NCBI GenBank assembly: GCA_003224055.1
Contig: QHYE01000003.1
Location: 1 to 64,000 of the forward strand
DNA: 64,000 nucleotides
Direction: 5' to 3'
From: Acidobacteriota bacterium
GTDB lineage: Bacteria > Acidobacteriota > Terriglobia > Acidiferrales > UBA7541
The translations under genes and the position numbers were made by a program. How positions within the stretch are numbered: the first letter of the stretch is position 1; every line of letters starts with the position of its first letter. Under the pieces are notes generated by a model. It saw only the letters and a program-made list of their open reading frames with translations. It had not been told where the DNA came from and ran no database searches. Below are positions 927 to 27,007 of this stretch, piece by piece.

Positions 927-3353
927 GTGTTCGAACGGTACACAGAGAAAGCGCGTCGGGTCATATTCTTTGCGAGGTACGAAGCCAGCCAATACGGCAG
1001 CCCGTACATCGAGACGGAGCATTTGCTGCTCGGCTTGATGCGCGAGGACAAGGCGCTAGCGAACCGATTTCTGCGGCAGCAGGGGTCGATCGAATCGATT
1101 CGCAAAGAGATCGAAGCGCGCATCACGATTCGCGAACGGATTTCCACTTCGGTGGAAGTGCCGCTGAGCGCGGAGTGCAAGCGCATCCTTAATATGGCGG
1201 CAGAAGAAGCGGAACGGCTCGGCCATAAGCATGTCGGCACCGAGCATTTGCTGCTGGGCATCCTGCGCGAAGAAAAATGTTTTGGCGCGGAAATACTGAT
1301 GGAGCGCGGGCTGCGGCTGTCCACTTTGCGCGAGGAGTTGGCGCGCACTTCAGGAGAAAAAGCGACGGCGGCGCGGCCCAAAGAGACTTCGCTGCTCGCG
1401 GAGTTCAGCCGGGACCTGACGCAAGCGGCGGGCGAAGGCTCGCTTGACCCGCTGGTCGGACGTGAAGGCGAAGTGGAGCGCGTGATTCAGATTCTTTGCC
1501 GGCGGACGAAGAACAATCCGGTGCTGATCGGGGAGCCGGGAGTCGGCAAGACGGCGATCGTGGAAGGTTTAGCGCAGCGGATTTCCGATGGAGACGTGCC
1601 GCCATTTCTGGCGGACAAGCGGATTCTTTCGCTGGATCTTTCCTTGATTGTGGCGGGCACGAAATACCGCGGACAGTTCGAAGAACGGCTGAAGACCATC
1701 ATGAAAGAATTGATGGAAAGCCAGAATGCAATTATTTTCATTGATGAGCTGCACACGCTGGTGGGCGCGGGGTCAGCGGAAGGGTCGCTGGACGCGGCGA
1801 ACATTTTGAAACCGGCGCTTTCGCGGGGCGAGATTCAGTGCATCGGGGCGACGACACCGGGCGAATACCGGAAATCGGTGGAAAAGGATCGCTCGCTGGA
1901 GCGGCGCTTCCAGGCGGTGAAAGTTCCGGCCCCGAACGAAGAAGAAGCGGTATTGGTGATTCAGGGCGTGCGGGAACGGTATGAGAAATTCCACGCGGTC
2001 AGTTACACCGACGAAGCGTTGCGCTACTCGGTTTATCTTTCGAACCGCTACATTCCCGATCGTTTTCTTCCGGACAAGGCCATTGATTTAATTGACGAGG
2101 CCGGAGCGCGCGTGAAGCTGAGGCAGGCCACCGTTCCGGAAGAAGTCGGGGAAGTGCAGAAGCGCGTGAAATTCATCACGCACCGGATGGAAACGGCGAT
2201 CGCCAATCACGAATTTGAAAAGGCGCGTTTCTACTCGGAAGAAGAACGCAAGGAAAAAGAAAACCTGCGCGGGTTGCGCGAGCGTTACAAGCTGGATGAC
2301 GCGTCCACGGGCATCGTGACGCGCGAGGATATCGAAGAAGTGGTTTCGCGCTGGACGGGCGTGGGCGTCACTTCCATTAAGGAAGACGAGCAACAGAAGT
2401 TGCTGCGCATCGAGCCGGAGCTGCACAAGAGGGTGATCAGCCAGGACAAGGCCATCACGGCGCTGGCGCGGGCGATTCGCCGCAGCCGAGCGGGGCTGAA
2501 GTCGCCGCTGCGTCCGGTGGGTTGTTTCTTCTTCCTCGGGCCGACGGGCGTAGGCAAGACCGAAGTAGCGCGGCGCCTGGCGGAATTTTTGTTTGGTTCG
2601 GAGAAGTCGCTGGTGCGATTCGATATGTCGGAGTTCATGGAAAAGCACTCCGTTTCGAAGCTCATCGGCGCGCCTCCAGGGTACGTGGGCTACGAAGAAG
2701 GCGGTCAGTTGACGGAGCGCGTCCGCCGGACTCCTTACTCGGTGATCCTGCTAGATGAAATCGAGAAGGCGCATCCGGACGTCTTTAACATTCTGTTGCA
2801 GGTGTTTGAAGACGGCCAGTTGACGGACGGGCTCGGCAATACCGTGGATTTCCGGAACACGATCATCATCATGACGTCCAATCTGGGTGCGCGGCACTTG
2901 CAGAAGCGCACCACGATGGGCTTCCAGTCCGGCGCGGATGAAGCCGGGCAGAAGAGCATGGAAGACATGGTGATGAACGAAGTAAAGCGGGTGTTCAATC
3001 CGGAGTTCCTCAACCGGTTGGACGAAGTGATCATATTCAATCCGCTCGGCGACGAAGACCTGCTCCGCATCATAGATTTGCTGGTGGGCCAGCTGAACGA
3101 CACGCTGATTCACCGGCAGGTGCAGATCGTGCTGTCGCCGGAAGCACGGCAGTGGATCCTCGAGAAAACGTGCGCGGACCGCAATTATGGCGCGCGTCCG
3201 TTGCGCAGGGCTTTGCAGAAGTATGTAGAGGACCCGCTCTCCGAGGCGCTGATCCAGGGTGGAATCCAAAGGCCCGCGACACTCCAGATTTATGTCGCAG
3301 GGGAAGGCCTTTCGTTCCGGCCCGTCGGTGAGGCAACCCCGGTCGTCCACTAG
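927..3353 (+). CDS. clpC: ATP-dependent Clp protease ATP-binding subunit ClpC
   Basis: Hexameric AAA+ unfoldase that feeds substrates to ClpP. From the GTG at 927 it has 808 aa, the usual ClpC length. Order: two Clp-N repeats (about 1-145), first AAA+ module with Walker A GEPGVGKT at 202-209 and Walker B IIFIDELH, a UVR-type coiled region near 415-450, second AAA+ module with GPTGVGKT at 538-545 and VILLDEIE, then the small C-terminal D2 domain. The start was chosen because the encoded [20 protein letters not shown] matches the canonical ClpC N-terminus and GGGGGAG precedes the GTG; the longer open frame from 858 overlaps the upstream ATPase gene and is not needed. No ctsR or mcsAB genes are adjacent, unlike the Bacillus clpC operon. 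Confidence 0.97.
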
Positions 3354-3461
3354 CGAATCTGACACAACGCACGGGTAATTCCGACCGGGTCGGGATCGAC
3401 GCACGGCCGGCCCATACCGGGTCCGGCGGGAGAAGAACAACTTGGGTTCGGGGGCGCGGCC

Positions 3462-6400
3462 TTGACGACCTCAACGGCCGCTTACAGGAAAGTTTGTTCG
3501 GCGTTTGGGATTTTAGCGGCTCGACTGACGCGAGCAATTGCGATCGTATTCTTTCTTGCGATTGCATCTCCCGGAGCGAGGCCGGAAAATCTCCCCGCGA
3601 ACGCGTCTGCACCTGATACACCCGCAATACTTTTTTCCGCTTCGATCGATTGGAATACCGGGAATGATGTCGTTGAGGATCACTCGACCGCAGCCTCCGC
3701 CGAAGCGCAGCAGGCTGCCGCGCAGCAGCAATACGTGATCGATCGAATCGATTTTGTGGGGAATCGCCGGGTGCGCAGCGACACGCTGAAAGCGCGCATC
3801 TTCAGCCGCGACGGGGACAATTACAACGAAGAGACGCTGCGACGCGATTTTCAAGCGCTGTGGAACACGCAGTTTTTTGAGGACGTGAAACTGCGCGTGG
3901 AAGATTCGCCGAACCGCGTCAACGGGAAAATCATTATTTTCGACGTGAAAGAGCGGCCGCAGATTCGCCGCATCCGTTATGAAGGAATCCACTCGATCTC
4001 CGAATCGGACATTCTGGACCGGTTCAAGGAGCGCAAAGTCGGGCTCAGCGTCGAAAGCCAGTTTGATCCGACGAGGATCAAGAAGGCGGAAGTAGTACTG
4101 AAGGATTTGCTCGGAGAGCACGGGCGGCAGTTCGCGAAGGTGACGCCGCAGTATGAACGGATTGCTTCGAGCAACGCGGTGATTCTAGTTTTCAAGATCG
4201 AGGAAGGGCCCAAGGTAAAAGTCGGGCAGATCAAGTTCAAGGGGAATCACGCGTTCAGCGACCGCAAACTCATCCGGGCGATGAGACATGACCGGCCGTA
4301 TTCGATTCCACTTTATTTCTGGTATATCCCGGTGCTTTCGAAAACCTACGATCGCCAGAAACTGAACGAGGATCTGGAGGTCGGTGTTCGCGGGCTGTAC
4401 CGCGACAACGGATATTTCAAGGTGTCCGTCGGCGATCCGATTCTCGAAAACCTCGACACGCGCAACAACCGCCTGGGAGTTCCGCTGGTGCTGGGACGCA
4501 CGGACGGCAAGGCCGTCAACATCACGATTCAGATCGAAGAAGGCGAGCGCTACCGGATGGGCACGCTGAAAATCGTGAGCGCCGATCCGGACAAGGCGCT
4601 GTCGCTGAAGGTAGATGCGCTCAAGAGCGCGTTTCCGCTCAAACAGGGAGACATCTTCTCCACCGAAAAAGTGCGGAAGGCTCTGGAGAACTACGGGAAA
4701 ATTTACGGCGAGTACGGATTCATCGACTTCACGCCGGAGCCGGACACGGAAATCGACGAAGCCAACAAAGTGATCAACCTTACGATGCGGTTTGACGAGC
4801 AGAAGCAGTACACGGTGAGGCGGATCGATTTCACCGGAAACACCACGACGCGCGACAAGGTCATCCGGCGCGAGCTGCTCATCGACGAAGGCCAGCTCTT
4901 CAACAAGCGATACTGGGAACTGAGTATCCTGCGGCTGAATCAACTCGACTATTTTGACAGGATCGAAGCGGACAAGGCCGCGGAGCTAAAGAAAAACACC
5001 AAGGACGGCACGGTGGACATCACGCTCAAGCTCAAGGAGAAGGGCAAGCAGTCCATCGGCTTGCAGGGCGGGGTAAGCGGGCTGGCCGGAAGTTTCCTCG
5101 GGCTGACCTACCAGACCAACAATTTCCTGGGACTTGGCGAGACGCTCACGTTTTCGGCGCAGTTCGGCGATCTGACGCGCAGCTTCATGTTCGGATTCAC
5201 AGAGCCGTATCTCTTCGACCGGCCGATCTCGACGGGTTTCACGATCTTCTCCAGCCGTTACAAGTTTGACCAGGCGCGGCAGGCGGCGCTTTTCACCGGC
5301 CAGAGCGTCAGCGTCAATCCACAATTCATCCAGAACTACAACCAGGACAGCACGGGGTTCACGGTGTATGCGAGCTATCCGCTGCGCAAATTGTCGTTCA
5401 CCCGAGTGGCCCTCAATTATGGGCTGACGCGCACGAACATCACGGCGTTTAACGATGCTTCGAAATTATTGTTCACGCAATTGCAATTCCGGAGCATCGC
5501 AGGCCCGAGCGCGCTGAACGGAATCGTCTCCAGCACGATCACCCCGACAATTTCCTATAACACGGTGAACCATCCGATAAATCCCACAGGCGGGAAGAGC
5601 TATTACTATTCGCTGGCGTTTTCGGGCGGCCCGCTGGGCGGCAACGTCAAGAGCATCACCAACGTTTTTGATTGGAAGTATTTCCATCCGATCAACAAGA
5701 GGCGAAATGTCCTGAGCTTCCATGCGACGGGAGCATTCACCACGGGATACGGGGGCGGAGAGCCACCGCCCTACAGCCGGTTCTACATGGGCGGAGAGAG
5801 TGATATTCGCGGATTCGACATCCGCTCCATCACTCCGGTGACGTTTATTCCCGTCGCCAGCACGCAACAATTTACCTACCTGTGCGGAACCTGCTTGAAC
5901 GCCTTTGGCCAGCCCACCCAGCGGACTTTCAACGTACCACTGCTGGGCTATACCATTTCCTTCCCCGGCGGCGACACGCAGAGCTACGGGAATTTTGAAT
6001 ATCGCATCCCCATCATCGGCACTACCGTGCAAATAGGGCTTTTCCTGGATGGCGGAACCAACGGCATTCTACGCAAGGGTGCGTTGAGGCTGGATAACAC
6101 TGGCTTCGAGAACCTGAAAACTCAATTCCCGGAGGCGCAGAGTTTGGCGGGATTGTCGCAGCGGCTCTCCATTGCACCGGGAACGAACTTCCGGCTGCGG
6201 GGCTCGACGGGGATCGAATTTGTGGTTCAATTGCCAATCATCCAGGCGCCGTTCCGGGTGTATTACGCCTACAATCTCCACCGGCTGCATACGCAGGTGA
6301 TCGCGCCGCCGGACTACCTCAATCCAAGCGAGATTTGCGATCAGATTGGACCGAACTGTCCGCAAATAGGATTGTTGCCCAGCACGCTGCCGCCGGATGT

Positions 6401-18840: not shown

Positions 18841-21800
18841 TTATGGTTGAGGCTGTGGAGAGGGAGACTGAAGTGTGCTGGGACCGGCGGTTCTGCCACC
18901 AGTCGCACCGCCCCGGCCGGCAAAAATCGTTCGCGTAAAATGGTCCGCCGCGCGCAATCTGCGCGGCGTGATGAGAATCAGGAGTTCGGTGTCCTGCCGT
19001 GAATTGTTCCTCTGCCCGAAGGCATAGCCCGCGCCCGGTATTTCCGCGAAGCCCGGCAAGCCGGTGATGGCGCGCGTCTCTTCCGTATCGGTGAGCCCGC
19101 CGAGCAGCGTCGGTTCGTCTTCTTTGACGCGCACGGTTTGCGTCAGTGTGCGGTTGGAAATAATTGGAATACCGTTCACGCTGCTGCCGGAGAGCGCCCG
19201 AATTTCAAATTCGAGCTGCAGGGTCACTTCATGGTTGGGATGCATCGCAGGCGTGGCCTTCACTTTTACGCCGAGGTCGATATATTCGGAAGCGGGATAG
19301 GGCTGCTGGGTCAATCCGGAACTTGAAAACAGACTCGCCGGGCTCAAGACAACGGTGACGTCGCCTGCGGCGCCGGACACATTGTTGGTGATGGCTACAT
19401 CGGGAAAGCCGCCGCTTACCAGTTGTGCCGTCACGATCGCCGTGGGAGTAGACCCTGATGGGCCCGCGGGCGGCTCAAACCCGAGTGTGAAGAGACCTGC
19501 AGCGACTCCAAAAAAAACTCGAAACGTGTTCGTGTCTCCACCCGTGACCGCGAAATCCGCGTGGCCGTCTTGATTGAAGTCCGCGATGGCAATACCCGTG
19601 GGATTTGTAGCGGTACTAACCGGCGAGTTCGGGCCGGCAACAAAAGTGGCGTCGCCGTTGTTCAGGAGTACGGTGACGGAATTGTCCGTCTTGTTCACGA
19701 CAGCGAGGTCAGCGCTGGCGTTTCCATCGAGATCCCCGGAGGCAATCGCGACGGGATTTTGCCCCACAGCAATTGGTGAGCCGGGAAACTGGGTGAAAGT
19801 TCCATCGCCATTGCCCTGGAGCACCACTACATTGCCTTGCGCCACGGAGGGATTGGCGAGCGTAGTTTGATTGACGATGGCGATATCAGGCTTGCCGTCG
19901 GCATTGAAATCAGCAACGGTCATGGCCACGGGGCCGCTGATATTTGCGGGGAGAGCAAAGGGAGAGCCTGCCACCGGGGTGAAAGTGGAGTTTCCGTTCG
20001 TGTCAACGCCTCCCAGAAAAACGGAGAGTGTGCTGTCCGCAAAATTGGCCACAGCGAAATCCTGGTGGCCGTCGCCGTCGAAGTCCGCGGTGACGATGGC
20101 GCTCGGCTGAGTGCCAACCGGGATCGACGTGGCAGGCGTTTTAAAGGTGTCGTCACCATTGCTGAAAAGAATCTTGACGTCGTTTGCGGTAGGGTCGGTG
20201 ATAAGGAGATCGTGAAAGCCGCTGGACGTGAGCACTGCGGATGCGATGGCAGGCGCGCTCGCCGGAACCGTGGTGCGCATCGCACCCAGCGAAATGGGAG
20301 AATTCGTGGCCTCGACAAATGTCCCCGGGCTGCCGCTCTGATTCACCAGGATAGTCACGGAATTGTCCAGCTGGTTCACCGCGGCAATATCGAGTATGCC
20401 GTTGTTCTGAAAATCGGCCGCGATGAGGGCTACCGGGCCAACGCCCACCGCATAGGAAGTGCTAGGGAAGGGATTGCTCGCGCCGCCCGGATTTGCCAGG
20501 GCGCTCGAGGTACCAAGGCTGCCGGAGAGCAACGCGAGCGTAACGGGGAAACGATCGCCCACGAAGAATGTTGCCGGCTTGCCGTCCTGAGCGCGGAGCA
20601 GAACTTGCCGCCCGCTGTGCACCAGCGAAAGAGCATTGGAAAAATCTAACGCAGCTCCGGGCAGCGTCAGAAGAAACGTGGTCTTGCCGCCACCCACGGC
20701 AATCAGCGGTGGGATCAGTGAACTGACCGATGTTGCCCCCGCGTTTACAGCCGTACCGAAGATGCCAGCGAGGAGCGTTTGTAGCTCCGAAAGATTGTTG
20801 GCCTGCGTCAACCGGCTGATCAAATTGGGCGGGATGGTGAAGAGCTGCGCCTTTGAGGGCGTTTGAACGCCGAGTTTCCGAGCAGTGTCGCGATCCACTT
20901 CAAGGAGCTCAATCTCCAGCATCACCTCGCCACGCGCTTTTTCCACTTGCCGGATCAACTCTCCGGCAACGGCCAGACGCTCCGGCGTGTCGCGAATGGT
21001 AATGGTGCGGCTGCGCGTGTCCAGCTCGATGTGGGTGGCCCCGGTCATCTCCCGCAGAACGCGGAGCATCTCCGTCACGTCTTCCGGGCTGGCGGCGCCG
21101 GAAAGCGGAAAAGTCTGCTGGGCTTCAGGGGCATATTGCCGGCGCTTCTCCAGGGTGTCCGGCGCGACGAAGATGAGAGTCGGATTCACCGGGCGCCAGA
21201 ACGTCGCCGTTTGTGCGCTCAGGATCGAAACGGCCGTGAAAAAATCCATATCGTCGAGGCGAAGGCGTACCGTTCGCGGACTTAAGTCCGGATCGAAAAC
21301 GGCCTTGATGCCGAACGCGGCGGCTGCCTGTTCGTAGACCGTCTTCGTGTCGCCGCGCAGGTCCAGGTTGTGTTTTTCGGGCAGAGGCTGGAGCTTTGGC
21401 AGGCCGGAGATTTCCGTCGCTCGCTTTGCAGGTGGCTCGTCTGCCATCGTTTTCATTTGGGCGAGGCGCTCCGCAACGATGGTATCTCCCGGATCGATCC
21501 GCAGGGCGGCTGCTAACTCCTCCGTGGCCTGATCCATGTGCCCCGCCAGGGCGTCACGCTCGGCGGCCTCGGTATGTACACGCACCAGCTTGGAGCGTAG
21601 CGCCGCTGCGCGTTCTACGATGGCCGTATCCTGCGGCGCCAGCAGCGCGGCCTCTTGATAGGCCGCTAGCGCTTCCTCGAGGCGTCCAGCCGCTTCGGCT
21701 TTGGCCCCGCGCTCTGATGCCTTCGGTGCTCGCTTGGGATTGGGTTGTTCCAAGGCTGCCGGGGACTGTGTGGTTGTTGGCGCTTGCGCACGCATCGGAG

Positions 21801-21855
21801 TGCATAGGAGCAGGCCGGCAGAGAAGACGGAGGCAGCTTGGCGAAGGGTGCGCAT
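18841..21855 (-). CDS. Secretin-family outer membrane protein with inserted FG-GAP repeats
   Basis: About 1004 aa. Order: signal peptide (MRTLRQAASVFSAGLLL...), TPR-like helices (about 50-140), an STN/N-domain region (about 165-320, LDLRGDTKTVYEQAAAAFG), then the start of the secretin beta domain (LLRAQDGKPATFFVGDRFPVT). At about residue 447 the secretin is interrupted by some 400 residues of FG-GAP/VCBS repeats containing DFDGDGHQD, DFNADGKPD and DFNQDGHAD Ca-binding-like loops. The secretin resumes near residue 852 at YIDLGVKVKATPAMHPN and ends with GLPGFAEIPGAGYAFG and LLILITPR. Type II/III/IV secretion channels are the known family; a system partner is not adjacent. ATG at 21855 starts a clean signal peptide; a TTG at 21903 would add 16 residues. 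Confidence 0.85.
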   Translation of the reverse strand: MRTLRQAASVFSAGLLLCTPMRAQAPTTTQSPAALEQPNPKRAPKASERGAKAEAAGRLEEALAAYQEAALLAPQDTAIVERAAALRSKLVRVHTEAAERDALAGHMDQATEELAAALRIDPGDTIVAERLAQMKTMADEPPAKRATEISGLPKLQPLPEKHNLDLRGDTKTVYEQAAAAFGIKAVFDPDLSPRTVRLRLDDMDFFTAVSILSAQTATFWRPVNPTLIFVAPDTLEKRRQYAPEAQQTFPLSGAASPEDVTEMLRVLREMTGATHIELDTRSRTITIRDTPERLAVAGELIRQVEKARGEVMLEIELLEVDRDTARKLGVQTPSKAQLFTIPPNLISRLTQANNLSELQTLLAGIFGTAVNAGATSVSSLIPPLIAVGGGKTTFLLTLPGAALDFSNALSLVHSGRQVLLRAQDGKPATFFVGDRFPVTLALLSGSLGTSSALANPGGASNPFPSTSYAVGVGPVALIAADFQNNGILDIAAVNQLDNSVTILVNQSGSPGTFVEATNSPISLGAMRTTVPASAPAIASAVLTSSGFHDLLITDPTANDVKILFSNGDDTFKTPATSIPVGTQPSAIVTADFDGDGHQDFAVANFADSTLSVFLGGVDTNGNSTFTPVAGSPFALPANISGPVAMTVADFNADGKPDIAIVNQTTLANPSVAQGNVVVLQGNGDGTFTQFPGSPIAVGQNPVAIASGDLDGNASADLAVVNKTDNSVTVLLNNGDATFVAGPNSPVSTATNPTGIAIADFNQDGHADFAVTGGDTNTFRVFFGVAAGLFTLGFEPPAGPSGSTPTAIVTAQLVSGGFPDVAITNNVSGAAGDVTVVLSPASLFSSSGLTQQPYPASEYIDLGVKVKATPAMHPNHEVTLQLEFEIRALSGSSVNGIPIISNRTLTQTVRVKEDEPTLLGGLTDTEETRAITGLPGFAEIPGAGYAFGQRNNSRQDTELLILITPRRLRAADHFTRTIFAGRGGATGGRTAGPSTLQSPSPQPQP

Positions 21856-21951: not shown

Positions 21952-21970
21952 GTTGCAAATGATTTACAAC
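21952..21970 (+). promoter_or_regulatory. Fur-like palindromic operator candidate
   Basis: GTTGCAAATGATTTACAAC is a 19-bp inverted repeat with 8 of 9 base pairs around a central G. Its 15-bp core matches the Fur 7-1-7 consensus TGATAATnATTATCA at 10 of 14 positions. It lies just downstream of the predicted start site and 10 bases before the GTG of the FTR1 gene, a position where a bound repressor would block transcription. Assigning it to Fur, or to the fused DtxR-like protein of this operon, is inference. Confidence 0.5.
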
Positions 21971-21980
21971 TGGAGTTCTC

Positions 21981-23243
21981 GTGCTCTCGGCCTTTCTTCT
22001 TGCCCTTCGCGAAGGTGTTGAAGCCTCTCTCGTTGTCGGCATCATCCTAGTCTACCTCTCCCGGACGGGACGCGGGCAGCTGGCGCGCTTTGCCTGGTAC
22101 GGCGTGACGGCGGCTGCGGCTCTCAGCCTTGGAGTTGCGGTAGCCCTGGAACGCTTCCGAATCAGCGAAGACGGATTCGAAGGGCTGCTGCTCCTTGTGG
22201 CTTCCGTGTTCGTGGTTACGATGATCGTATGGATGAACCGCGTTGCGCGACACCTGAAAAAAGAAATTGAGCAAAAAGTCGAGGAGTATGCCGGACGCAC
22301 GGGGAGCGCCGCGGGCTGGGGGATTTTTCTATTCGTGTTCCTGATGGTCTTGCGCGAGGGCGCCGAACTGGCGCTGATCCTGCGTGCGGTGGAACTCTCG
22401 AGCGAGGGGTTGCAAACCTGGATCGGGACGATTGTGGGCATAGGGGCGGCCGTGGCTGTCGGTGTGTTTTTCTTCAAGGGCACTTTGCGTATTCCGCTCC
22501 ATCGGTTTTTTGCTGCGACGAGCGTCATTCTGATGCTGGTGGCATTTCAGCTCGCGCTGACGGGATTGCATGAGCTTAGCGAGGCCCGCTGGCTGCCTTC
22601 GAGCAAGCAAGAAATGGCGCTGATCGGTCCCATCGTGCGCAATGAGCTGTTTTTCTTTGTCCTTATTTTTGGGGCGGCGGCGCTGCTGGTACTGCGGGAG
22701 TGGCAGTCTGAGTCACACGCCAGGGCAGCGAAAGAAGCTGCCGGCGAGGCGGAGAAGAGATTGCTCGAGGCACAGAATCGCCGCCAGCAGCGGTGGATGA
22801 TTGCTGCGGCAAGCGCGTGCCTGGTGGTGATTCTGGTGCTGACCGCGGACTTTATTTATACGCGCGCAAACTCCGCTCCGCCCACTGCACGGGCGGTTGT
22901 GGCGGTGGGCAATGAGGTGCGCATCCCGATCAGTGAAGTGCAGGACGGCACTCTGCACCTGTACACGGTCAACGCCGGGAATCAATCGCTTCGTTTCCTG
23001 ATCATCAAGAAACCGAACGGCTATGGCACGGCTCTGGACGCTTGCCGGATTTGCGGCGCGGAAGGGTATCGCCAGGACGGGCAAAATGTCATTTGCCGGC
23101 ACTGCGGCTCGGCGATCTATGTGCCATCGGTAGGAGATCACGGTGGTTGCAACCCGATCAGTGTTCCGTCGCACGTGGAGGGTAGCGAGCTGACCATCGA
23201 TATTTTGTCATTAACGCAAGCTGCGAAGGAGATTCCTCTGTAG
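21981..23243 (+). CDS. FTR1-family iron permease fused to a DUF2318 domain
   Basis: Inner-membrane iron importer. The FTR1 part (about 1-240, seven predicted membrane helices) has both REXXE iron-binding motifs: REGVE at 10-14 and REGAE at 125-129. A charged linker (about 240-275) leads to one more membrane helix (about 277-295) and a periplasmic DUF2318 domain with Cys pairs C355/C358 and C372/C375 plus C390 (GGCNP). In Campylobacter-type systems the permease and the DUF2318 protein are separate genes; here they are one polypeptide. GTG start with TGGAG five bases before it. First gene of a five-gene operon; iron specificity is from family knowledge. Confidence 0.92.
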   Translation: MLSAFLLALREGVEASLVVGIILVYLSRTGRGQLARFAWYGVTAAAALSLGVAVALERFRISEDGFEGLLLLVASVFVVTMIVWMNRVARHLKKEIEQKVEEYAGRTGSAAGWGIFLFVFLMVLREGAELALILRAVELSSEGLQTWIGTIVGIGAAVAVGVFFFKGTLRIPLHRFFAATSVILMLVAFQLALTGLHELSEARWLPSSKQEMALIGPIVRNELFFFVLIFGAAALLVLREWQSESHARAAKEAAGEAEKRLLEAQNRRQQRWMIAAASACLVVILVLTADFIYTRANSAPPTARAVVAVGNEVRIPISEVQDGTLHLYTVNAGNQSLRFLIIKKPNGYGTALDACRICGAEGYRQDGQNVICRHCGSAIYVPSVGDHGGCNPISVPSHVEGSELTIDILSLTQAAKEIPL

Positions 23244-24606: not shown

Positions 24607-25805
24607 TGGCTAGCTACCTCACGGCCAATCGAGCCATGTTCTGGCGCATCCTCCGCCGGCTTCTCGGCGCCAACCGCGGCCGCCTGTTCGTCATCCTTCT
24701 AGCACTCGGGGCGGGCGCTGCCGTCACGGCAGCGCTCCTTAATCTACAGGTTGACGCCAAACGCCGCCTGACAACTGAATTCCGCAGTTTCGGAGCAAAC
24801 GTCATCATCGCGCCGGCTGGTACTAGTCACGGTTCAGGCTCGGCGACAATCTCTGAAACTCTGTTGGACCACTTTCCAAACCAAACATCCCTCAGTTCGA
24901 TTCCTAGGGCAACGTTTCTCTATGCCATTGCAGATGTCACAGCTTTCAGTGGCGAAGGAACGGACGGCACCAAGCTCGGGACCGCACTTGTTGTCATTAC
25001 CGGTTACCGTTTTCTGGCCGACGATCTAAAGCAAATAGTCCCCCATCATGTGATCGAAGGCGACAATGTGGTCATTCTTGATTCGGAAACATGTGAAATC
25101 GGGGAAAAAGTCGCTTCGCAATTTCATCTTCACGTCTCAGGCGTATTGAAATTGAAGACTGAGAAAGCTGAGGTAAGTTGCGTGGTTTCGCAGATTAGGA
25201 GTTTTGGAGGTGTTGAAGACAGTCAGATTTTCATGCCAATGAAAACAGTTCAGCGTCTTGCTGGGTTGCCGCAGAGAGTCAGCTTGATTCAGGCAGTCGT
25301 GCCCGGCACCCCAGCTCAGATCGAGGACTATCTAGACGACCTTCGAAATCAATTCCCCGACGCTGAGGTACGCCCAATTCGACAATTCACGGAGGGCGAA
25401 GCGAAAATCTACAACCAGATCAGCGGGTTGTTGACAGCGACGGTGGGGATTGTGCTACTGCTGACCGGGCTTTGCGTGATGGCGGCGATGACGAACGTGG
25501 CGATGGAACGGAAGATGGACGTGGGCTTGATGAAGGCTATGGGCGGTTCGGTGCGTCGCGTGCTGCGGCTATTCCTGACGGAGGTAGCGCTGCTCGGCCT
25601 TGTAGGCGGTCTGATTGGCGCCGCGTTAGGAATTATTCTTTCGATGGGATTGGGGAAAGCCGTTTTTGGCGTGGCGGCGCGTCCCCGGCTGATTGTGTAT
25701 CCTGTAGCTGTGGCGCTGACAATTATGATTGCCATTTTCAGTGCTTTTCCGCTGCGGCGGTTGGCGAGCATTCGGCCCGCTTCCGTGTTTCGAGGTGAAG
25801 CGTGA
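24603..25805 (+). CDS. ABC transporter permease, FtsX/MacB-like (second of pair)
   Basis: 400 aa, same architecture as the preceding permease: N-terminal helix (about 22-42), periplasmic domain, FtsX region with three helices at the C-terminus and the MERKMDVGLMKAMGGS coupling segment that contacts the ATPase. The two are diverged paralogues and probably form a heterodimer. The start overlaps the stop of the first permease (ATGA) and its stop overlaps the GTG of the ATPase gene (GTGA), so all three should be made in fixed ratio. Confidence 0.88.
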   Translation: MMASYLTANRAMFWRILRRLLGANRGRLFVILLALGAGAAVTAALLNLQVDAKRRLTTEFRSFGANVIIAPAGTSHGSGSATISETLLDHFPNQTSLSSIPRATFLYAIADVTAFSGEGTDGTKLGTALVVITGYRFLADDLKQIVPHHVIEGDNVVILDSETCEIGEKVASQFHLHVSGVLKLKTEKAEVSCVVSQIRSFGGVEDSQIFMPMKTVQRLAGLPQRVSLIQAVVPGTPAQIEDYLDDLRNQFPDAEVRPIRQFTEGEAKIYNQISGLLTATVGIVLLLTGLCVMAAMTNVAMERKMDVGLMKAMGGSVRRVLRLFLTEVALLGLVGGLIGAALGIILSMGLGKAVFGVAARPRLIVYPVAVALTIMIAIFSAFPLRRLASIRPASVFRGEA

Positions 25806-27007
25806 GTTCCCTGATTCAGGCGCAGGCTCTCCCCGGGTCGTCCCAGGTGGTCATCGAGAACCTGACCAAGCAGTACGGCACGCTCCGCGCGCTTGGTGGC
25901 GTCAGCTTTGACGTAAACACCGGCGAATGGGTCGCGCTCATGGGCCCTTCGGGCTCCGGGAAAACTACGCTCATCAATATTCTTGGTGGCTTGGACACGC
26001 TGACCTCCGGCCGCGTGGTCGTGGACGGCGTTGACCTCTCCAACCTCAGAGAAAGTGAATTGGTTCGTTACCGCGCAGAGAAAGTTGGTTTCGTTTTCCA
26101 GCAGTTTCACCTCGTGCCGTATCTCACTGCCGTCGAAAATGTCATGCTGGCGCAGTATTTCCACAGCGTCACGGATGAAAAACAGGCCGCGGAAGCGCTC
26201 AAGCGCGTCGGCTTGGGCGACCGCCTAACCCATCTTCCCGCGCAGCTTTCCGGCGGCGAGGGGCAACGCGTGGCCATCGCGCGTGCACTCATCAATCAGC
26301 CGAAGCTGATTCTGGCCGACGAGCCGACCGGCAATCTTGACGAAGCCAACGAAGACGTGGTGCTTCAGATTTTCCGAGAACTGCACAACGCGGGCCACAC
26401 GATCTTAATGGTGACGCACGATCCAGACATTGCGCGTCAGGCGGACCGCCGCATCGAACTGGCCCACGGACATCTGCATTTCGATACGTTGCAGCACGGC
26501 CCGAGCCATCCGCTGAACTGTCCTCTCGCGGACACGGCGGACTGCTGCACTCCCGTTTCGACCGATGACGAAATCCGCTTCGATCACCTGCTCGAACAAA
26601 TTTGGGTTTGCGGCGAGGAAGGGAAGCCGGCGGAAGCCGAACGACTCCATGCCTCGGGGCCGGCCGGGAAACTCCCTGTCGTCACAGAAGAGCCCGCTAC
26701 CCGCGTGCTCTCCCGCATGTCGGATCTGCATTTGGTACAGATGGAAAACGGCGAAGTGCAGCTCACCCCCGTGGGCAGCCAGCGCGCGCGCGACGTTATT
26801 CGCCGCCACCGCCTGGCCGAGCGTCTCTTCAAGGACACGTTTTCCATCGAGGACTCCGAAGCGCACACGCAAGCCTGCAAGTTCGAACACATCATCAGCC
26901 CGGAGCTAGACCAGCGCATCTGCACATTCCTCGGCCATCCGAAGACCTGCCCCCACGGGAATCCCATTCCGCCGGGCGATTGCTGCAACGGCAAGTCCAA
27001 GAGCTGA
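25802..27007 (+). CDS. ABC ATPase fused to a DtxR-like metal-sensing module
   Basis: 401 aa. Residues 1-230 are a LolD/MacB-type ATPase: Walker A GPSGSGKT 48-55, signature LSGGEGQR 149-156, Walker B LILADEPT 169-176, MVTHD. A Cys-rich linker (C240, C248, C249) leads to a C-terminal region (about 255-390) that aligns with the whole of DtxR/MntR repressors: a winged-helix part ending LTPVGSQRARDVIRRH and a dimerisation/metal part. H336, E340, H355, C359, E362 and H363 reproduce DtxR H79, E83, H98, C102, E105, H106 with identical spacing; the Met10 equivalent is not evident. The ATPase energises the two upstream permeases; the fused sensor probably gates it by metal, or lets it act as a repressor. 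GTG start, overlapping the previous gene. Confidence 0.9.
   Translation: MSSLIQAQALPGSSQVVIENLTKQYGTLRALGGVSFDVNTGEWVALMGPSGSGKTTLINILGGLDTLTSGRVVVDGVDLSNLRESELVRYRAEKVGFVFQQFHLVPYLTAVENVMLAQYFHSVTDEKQAAEALKRVGLGDRLTHLPAQLSGGEGQRVAIARALINQPKLILADEPTGNLDEANEDVVLQIFRELHNAGHTILMVTHDPDIARQADRRIELAHGHLHFDTLQHGPSHPLNCPLADTADCCTPVSTDDEIRFDHLLEQIWVCGEEGKPAEAERLHASGPAGKLPVVTEEPATRVLSRMSDLHLVQMENGEVQLTPVGSQRARDVIRRHRLAERLFKDTFSIEDSEAHTQACKFEHIISPELDQRICTFLGHPKTCPHGNPIPPGDCCNGKSKS

Follow-up and report, generated by a model that had tools for sequence, protein, structure and literature searches.

The window (the whole stretch of 64,000 nucleotides that was analysed) carries a gene for a TPR-secretin, which runs on the reverse strand from 21855 to 18841 as a single frame of 1004 amino acids, without interruption from its ATG, according to the ORF listing and the sequence. 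Its neighbours are truB/rbfA/infB/nusA and FTR1/FtsX/ABC genes. No gsp, pil or tad genes adjoin it in this neighbourhood, and the gene is an orphan secretin. Two named families were tried and rejected: the protein scores 90 bits with the GspD model (TIGR02517), against an equivalog cut-off of 351, and lies in no gsp operon; with the PilQ model (TIGR02515) it scores 73 bits against a cut-off of 284, and the PilQ of this genome is a separate protein, encoded on contig C36. Besides that PilQ, the genome contains one further secretin, a TPR-secretin with a cohesin on contig C33, and six matches to T2SSE-type ATPases. The cohesin-bearing protein (locus L157 of genome G000, 1253-3565, reverse strand) is a paralogue, with the cohesin at its C terminus and a lipobox by reading of the sequence; its gene is adjoined by two ORFs with a pseudopilin-like N-methylation motif.

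A near-perfect 17-bp palindrome, TTGCAAATGATTTACAA, is found at 21953-21969, some 12 bp ahead of the gene for the FTR1-FtrD iron permease (start at 21981, forward strand). Of the related loci with FTR1 next to the secretin, most have it too, with 0-3 mismatches; most of those without an adjacent FTR1 lack it, and there is a single other near match genome-wide, at C100:9118. The palindrome looks like the operator of a metal regulator. Iron regulation of the secretin through it is unsupported, given this absence where FTR1 is not adjacent. The gene at 25802-27007 encodes an ABC transporter ATPase that carries an iron-dependent repressor domain (PF02742) as a C-terminal fusion; it apparently shares an operon with FTR1-FtrD and two permeases of the MacB/FtsX type.

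The features of the TPR-secretin are given in Table 1. Its N terminus resembles a signal peptide, and the protein is taken as exported. In the AF2 models the TPR-like region is helical between residues 43 and 118, with pLDDT of about 55-80. The following region, for which the Pfam search gave no match over residues 160-235 or so, is provisionally named N0 from the predicted fold. The Secretin_N match is slightly below its cut-off (27.5 bits against 28.2, E = 3.6e-6), and the orthologue at locus L118, which has no insert, scores above it. PF00263 matches well (97.7 bits, cut-off 27.5, E = 7.1e-28) over profile positions 51-166 only; it covers the second part of the β-domain alone because the insert splits the domain, and in the insert-less L118 the match extends over positions 17-167 of 169. 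A profile built from insert-less sequences gave a match in GspD (5zdh) that spans part 1. Within the insert, Pfam finds FG-GAP_3 (PF13517) in four stretches, at 1.9e-33, together with FG-GAP (PF01839), both over the cut-off.

Table 1. Features of the TPR-secretin and its insert; positions are those of the window and residues those of the protein.
Feature	Positions	Strand	Residues and details	Basis
TPR-secretin with inserted propeller	18841..21855	(-)	1004 aa; ATG at 21855, stop at 18841-18843	ORF list, Pfam, relatives
Signal-peptide-like N terminus	21781..21855	(-)	1-25; MRTLRQAASVFSAGLLLCTPMRAQA	sequence reading
TPR-like region	21454..21732	(-)	42-134	TPR_2, TPR_14 and BTAD matches, all weak
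N0/STN-like domain (putative)	21151..21378	(-)	about 160-235	AF2 strands alternating with helices, pLDDT 54-85
Secretin_N (N1/N3-type)	20932..21081	(-)	259-308	PF03958, slightly below the cut-off
Secretin β-domain, part 1	20560..20931	(-)	about 309-432	alignment to insert-less orthologues
Gate 1 pivot glycine 1	20557..20559	(-)	G433 (VGDRFPVT)	alignments
Inserted segment, Gate 1 loop tip	19323..20508	(-)	about 450-845	absent from insert-less positional orthologues
Predicted seven-bladed β-propeller, integrin/FG-GAP type	19342..20463	(-)	465-838	AF2, Foldseek
Blade 1	20284..20436	(-)	474-524	iterated repeat HMM
Blade 2	20110..20253	(-)	535-582	iterated repeat HMM
Blade 3	19951..20106	(-)	584-635; canonical DFDGDG loop	iterated repeat HMM, sequence
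Blade 4	19762..19932	(-)	642-698; canonical DFNADG loop	iterated repeat HMM, sequence
Blade 5	19612..19755	(-)	701-748	iterated repeat HMM
Blade 6	19459..19602	(-)	752-799; canonical DFNQDG loop	iterated repeat HMM, sequence
Blade 7	19330..19446	(-)	804-842; strand 465-470, at the N terminus of the insert, apparently completes it	HMM, AF2
Gate 1 pivot glycine 2	19270..19272	(-)	G862 (YIDLGVKVKATP)	G in 59/59 carriers and 23/23 insert-less rows
Secretin β-domain, part 2	18961..19272	(-)	862-965	PF00263 at 851-965; PDB secretin matches

The preliminary description had proposed a secretin β-domain interrupted by FG-GAP repeats, with both secretin halves intact, a break near 20520 and a resumption near 19300. 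This is confirmed: about 395 residues of FG-GAP repeats split the domain as a true internal insertion, insert-less orthologues read across the site, and the two positions were correct to within about 40 bases. In the alignment the insert-less L118 has FFLGERFPVTIGRLTPALVNPSLLPLLGPQLQAPFPAFQFEDLGLRVRATP, where the TPR-secretin has FFVGDRFPVTLALLSG, the insert, and then QQPYPASEYIDLGVKVKATP. The gap between the β-domain halves is 364-676 amino acids in the carriers compared to 13-21 in insert-less relatives, and from pivot to pivot the distance is 384-696 residues (median 422) compared to 16-41.

The site of insertion was located by alignment to secretins of known structure. G433 aligns with G439 of Vibrio cholerae PilQ (VcPilQ) and G453 of VcGspD, and is a glycine in all 11 aligned sequences. 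Alignment of the PilQ from the same genome to VcPilQ (6w6m) gave QGTEIPYLESSSSGASTVAF, the numbering of which matches that in PMC7545093, where G439 is the hinge and L445, S448 and S453 lie in the gate hairpins. The insert falls in the S448-S453 turn of VcPilQ. With ETEC GspD (5zdh), the profile of insert-less sequences covers the insert site, at VGQDVPVLTGSTVGSNNSNPFNTVERKKVG. The Gate 1 loop of f1 pIV is bounded by pivot glycines 267 and 297 (PMC8563730), and the central gate of XcpD comprises residues 466-496, of which T477/S480 form the tip (PMC10550240). Alignments to insert-less orthologues, PilQ and GspD, taken with the published pivots, therefore place the insert between the Gate 1 pivots. 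An insertion at the tip of the central-gate loop, between the conserved G433 and G862, is thus well supported, which sharpens the gate-region location given earlier. About 32 residues link G433 to the start of the propeller at 465, and about 24 link its end at 838 to G862.

The insert is predicted to be one complete, closed, seven-bladed propeller of the integrin type. Seven blades are present over residues 465-838 in both AF2 models, with pLDDT mostly 70-93, and among the best Foldseek matches are CRTAC1, integrin alpha headpieces and the fungal lectin PVL, a likeness to lectins and integrins that is at the level of fold (8-20% identity). Blade 7 appears to be where the propeller closes on itself. 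As strand 465-470 would complete that blade, the two ends of the propeller come to lie side by side, as insertion into a hairpin requires. Structure prediction, one of the checks suggested beforehand, thus gave a closed propeller and not an open array, and left the position of the propeller unsettled: the alignment supplied consisted of five sequences, for which reason the secretin part is unreliable (pLDDT mostly below 50 in both models), and the models are silent on closure of the ring.

The iterated repeat HMM counted exactly seven repeats in all 64 insert loci (59 of them distinct), with insert lengths of 364-676 amino acids. That HMM was seeded with the seven repeats of this same TPR-secretin, and so the result is the constancy of the count and not the count in the seed protein itself. 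The calcium-binding-like DxDxDG loops described earlier hold for blades 3, 4 and 6; the other four of the seven blades are without a canonical D-x-[DN]-x-[DN]-G loop, and across the family the number of such loops is 1-7 per protein. In the longest inserts the extra length consists of nested Ig-like domains, as seen with Pfam and the repeat HMM: two He_PIG domains after blade 3 in one lineage (L010-L012, L110, L112 and L115) and three Big_2 domains after blade 1 in another (L140 and L141). Ig-like additions are common in surface adhesins.

A search for the same insertion in other Acidobacteria had been suggested; the insert is contained in one ORF at 59 distinct loci, and occurs across one GTDB-level family of soil Acidobacteria. 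No relative among the loci examined has the two parts as separate genes, a few of these loci being cut by a contig end or containing a stop. A match at E <= 1e-40 was obtained in 85 of the 89 genomes of the family, including 50 of 50 of good quality, the matching protein being a paralogue in a few of the 85. Among the loci examined, the insert is absent from one genus of the carrier family (g3) and from the two other families of the order; in the class outside the order, the nearest relatives are insert-less and occupy a different genomic slot. Carriers adjoin truB, and usually have FTR1-FtsX-FtsX-ABC genes on the opposite side. The insert-less L118-L120 and L122-L124 also adjoin truB, and L121 adjoins FTR1; since the insert-less relatives from g3 and from the order lie mostly beside truB, they are positional orthologues. 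The g3 loci L118 and L119 have the insert-less version in small genomes, of 2.6-2.8 Mb. No secretin relatives were found in the viral contigs scanned.

The dN/dS ratio (omega) of the insert was 0.05-0.21 in 12 pairs, with the flanking secretin parts much alike, ie purifying selection acts on the insert as strongly as on the rest of the secretin. In a quick tree of the secretin core, from which the insert was left out, g3 is nested among the carriers and two state changes are needed. An AU test did not reject the carriers as a single clade (p = 0.449), which is compatible with a single gain, with or without a loss in g3. The likeliest history, though unproven, is one gain, perhaps followed by a loss in g3.

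Sequence, homologues and prediction all lend good support to the architecture, ie a TPR-secretin in which the tip of Gate 1 has been opened for a closed propeller. The place of the propellers in an assembled channel has to be judged from other secretins. The Gate 1 tips of closed secretins are directed toward the pore axis, and opening is an upward and outward swing of Gate 1 about the two glycines (PMC8563730, PMC10550240). Fifteen inserts would occupy about 789,000 A^3 and 12 about 631,000 A^3, whereas a cylinder of 90 x 96 A, a generous estimate of the lumen from the dimensions of f1 pIV (PMC8563730), holds about 611,000 A^3 at most. The argument from volume is thin at 12 subunits, where the bare propeller cores amount to about 596,000 A^3, just below the bound. 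For carriers with nested Ig domains the figure is 0.9-1.35 million A^3, or 1.5 to 2 times the bound. As 12-15 complete inserts are larger than the bound, the propellers are probably not all in the lumen. The earlier suggestion that one face of the channel bears a large domain is less supported, given the axial Gate 1 tip and the excess of 12-15 inserts over the lumen estimate.

The swing of Gate 1, together with tethers of about 24 and 32 residues, favours propellers at the outer mouth of the channel. The TPR-secretin would oligomerise as other secretins do, with the Gate 1 loops held up or out around the pivot glycines, and the propellers would probably be arranged as a crown around the extracellular mouth. 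Such a crown could act as a lectin- or adhesin-like, multivalent recognition surface, for which adhesion or ligand sensing seems the likeliest role. The propellers may perhaps also cap the pore, standing in for the normal seal of the gate, and ligand binding and pore opening might be coupled. Either the propellers form a crown or the assembly is unlike that of known secretins. The explanation as a whole, a propeller grafted into Gate 1 and forming a crown that serves in recognition, is the best we can offer and has, in our judgement, about an even chance of being correct. Its boldest form, in which the gate is a ring of integrin-like propellers and binding of ligand or Ca2+ moves the Gate 1 loops, making a ligand-gated outer-membrane pore, is speculative and we regard it as doubtful.

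Three other arrangements were weighed. Firstly, the propellers could form a plug inside or just below the pore, at staggered heights on flexible tethers, replacing the Gate 1 seal and being pushed aside by a substrate or pilus. The axial direction of the closed Gate 1 tips suits such a plug, and the length of the tethers would permit the staggering; the volume of 15 inserts, and still more that of the Ig-nested carriers, speaks against it, and Ig-like additions are harder to account for within a pore. We consider it unlikely. Secondly, the Gate 1 loops could hang down into the periplasm, where the propellers would bind inner-membrane or peptidoglycan partners and recruit a machine for the orphan secretin. 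No machine genes are near the gene, and the T2SSE-type ATPases and the two other secretins of the genome would be available for sharing. However, the known hinge motion is outward, and the N-domains enclose the chamber below the gate (PMC8563730, PMC10550240), which makes a periplasmic position rather improbable.

Thirdly, there might be no working channel, the secretin part being a mere outer-membrane anchor for an adhesive propeller, as a monomer or a non-gated oligomer. The failure of PF00263 to match the first half of the β-domain, and the orphan state of the gene, could be read in this way. Against this, both halves are under strong purifying selection with the pivot glycines kept, and in one genus of the family the insert-less orthologues match PF00263 over most of its length, so that an anchor alone is distinctly improbable. 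An artefact or recent neutral fusion (mis-assembly, a frameshift, a transient insertion), a concern in a fragmented draft genome of 136 contigs, is refuted by 59 distinct carriers with the insert in one frame, seven blades in each, the low omega values and conserved synteny, and is given practically no weight.

Secretins and FG-GAP propellers are both known kinds of protein; within the literature searched, their combination and the site of insertion are apparently new. In that literature, with most subscription journals outside reach, we found no description of a secretin fused to FG-GAP, VCBS, a propeller or a cohesin, and no report of any folded domain in a secretin gate, the tip of which is known to be variable in sequence (PMC8563730). 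Here a domain of about 43 kDa is carried on each gate loop and has been retained through a bacterial family, and related secretins, several of them at the same locus, are without it. The propeller-bearing and insert-less secretins thus amount to a natural experiment on the need for closure of the central gate. The presence or absence of the propeller is a built-in handle for gate motion, assembly and the export of a folded luminal domain. If the propellers do form a crown, this would be a new construction of a multivalent adhesin.

Compared to GspD, XcpD, PilQ and f1 pIV (PF00263), the TPR-secretin has the same β-domain, both Gate 1 pivot glycines and a Secretin_N match slightly below the cut-off, and PilQ and GspD can be aligned across the insert site. 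The Gate 1 of XcpD is about 31 residues (466-496, PMC10550240), whereas the TPR-secretin has about 430 from pivot to pivot. It is also far under the cut-offs of the GspD and PilQ models, and differs in its N-terminal TPR and orphan locus. With the integrin alpha head, CRTAC1 and the Psathyrella velutina lectin (PVL) it shares seven FG-GAP-type repeats and some DxDxDG loops. The alpha-I domain of integrins is an extra domain inserted between propeller blades, and in this respect integrin alpha is like the Ig-nested carriers, which also have extra domains between blades. Unlike all three, the TPR-secretin has its propeller grafted by both ends into the loop of a membrane channel. The cap (top) gate of Vibrio-type secretins is likewise an elaboration of the C-module, by which the outer mouth is narrowed or covered (PMC10550240), but it is an apical loop, with pairs of β-strands at the outer rim, and there is no folded domain in Gate 1. 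A further comparison is within the genome itself, where the TPR-secretin-cohesin paralogue has a TPR region and the same secretin core (28-38% identity), but carries its extra domain at the C terminus and not in the gate.
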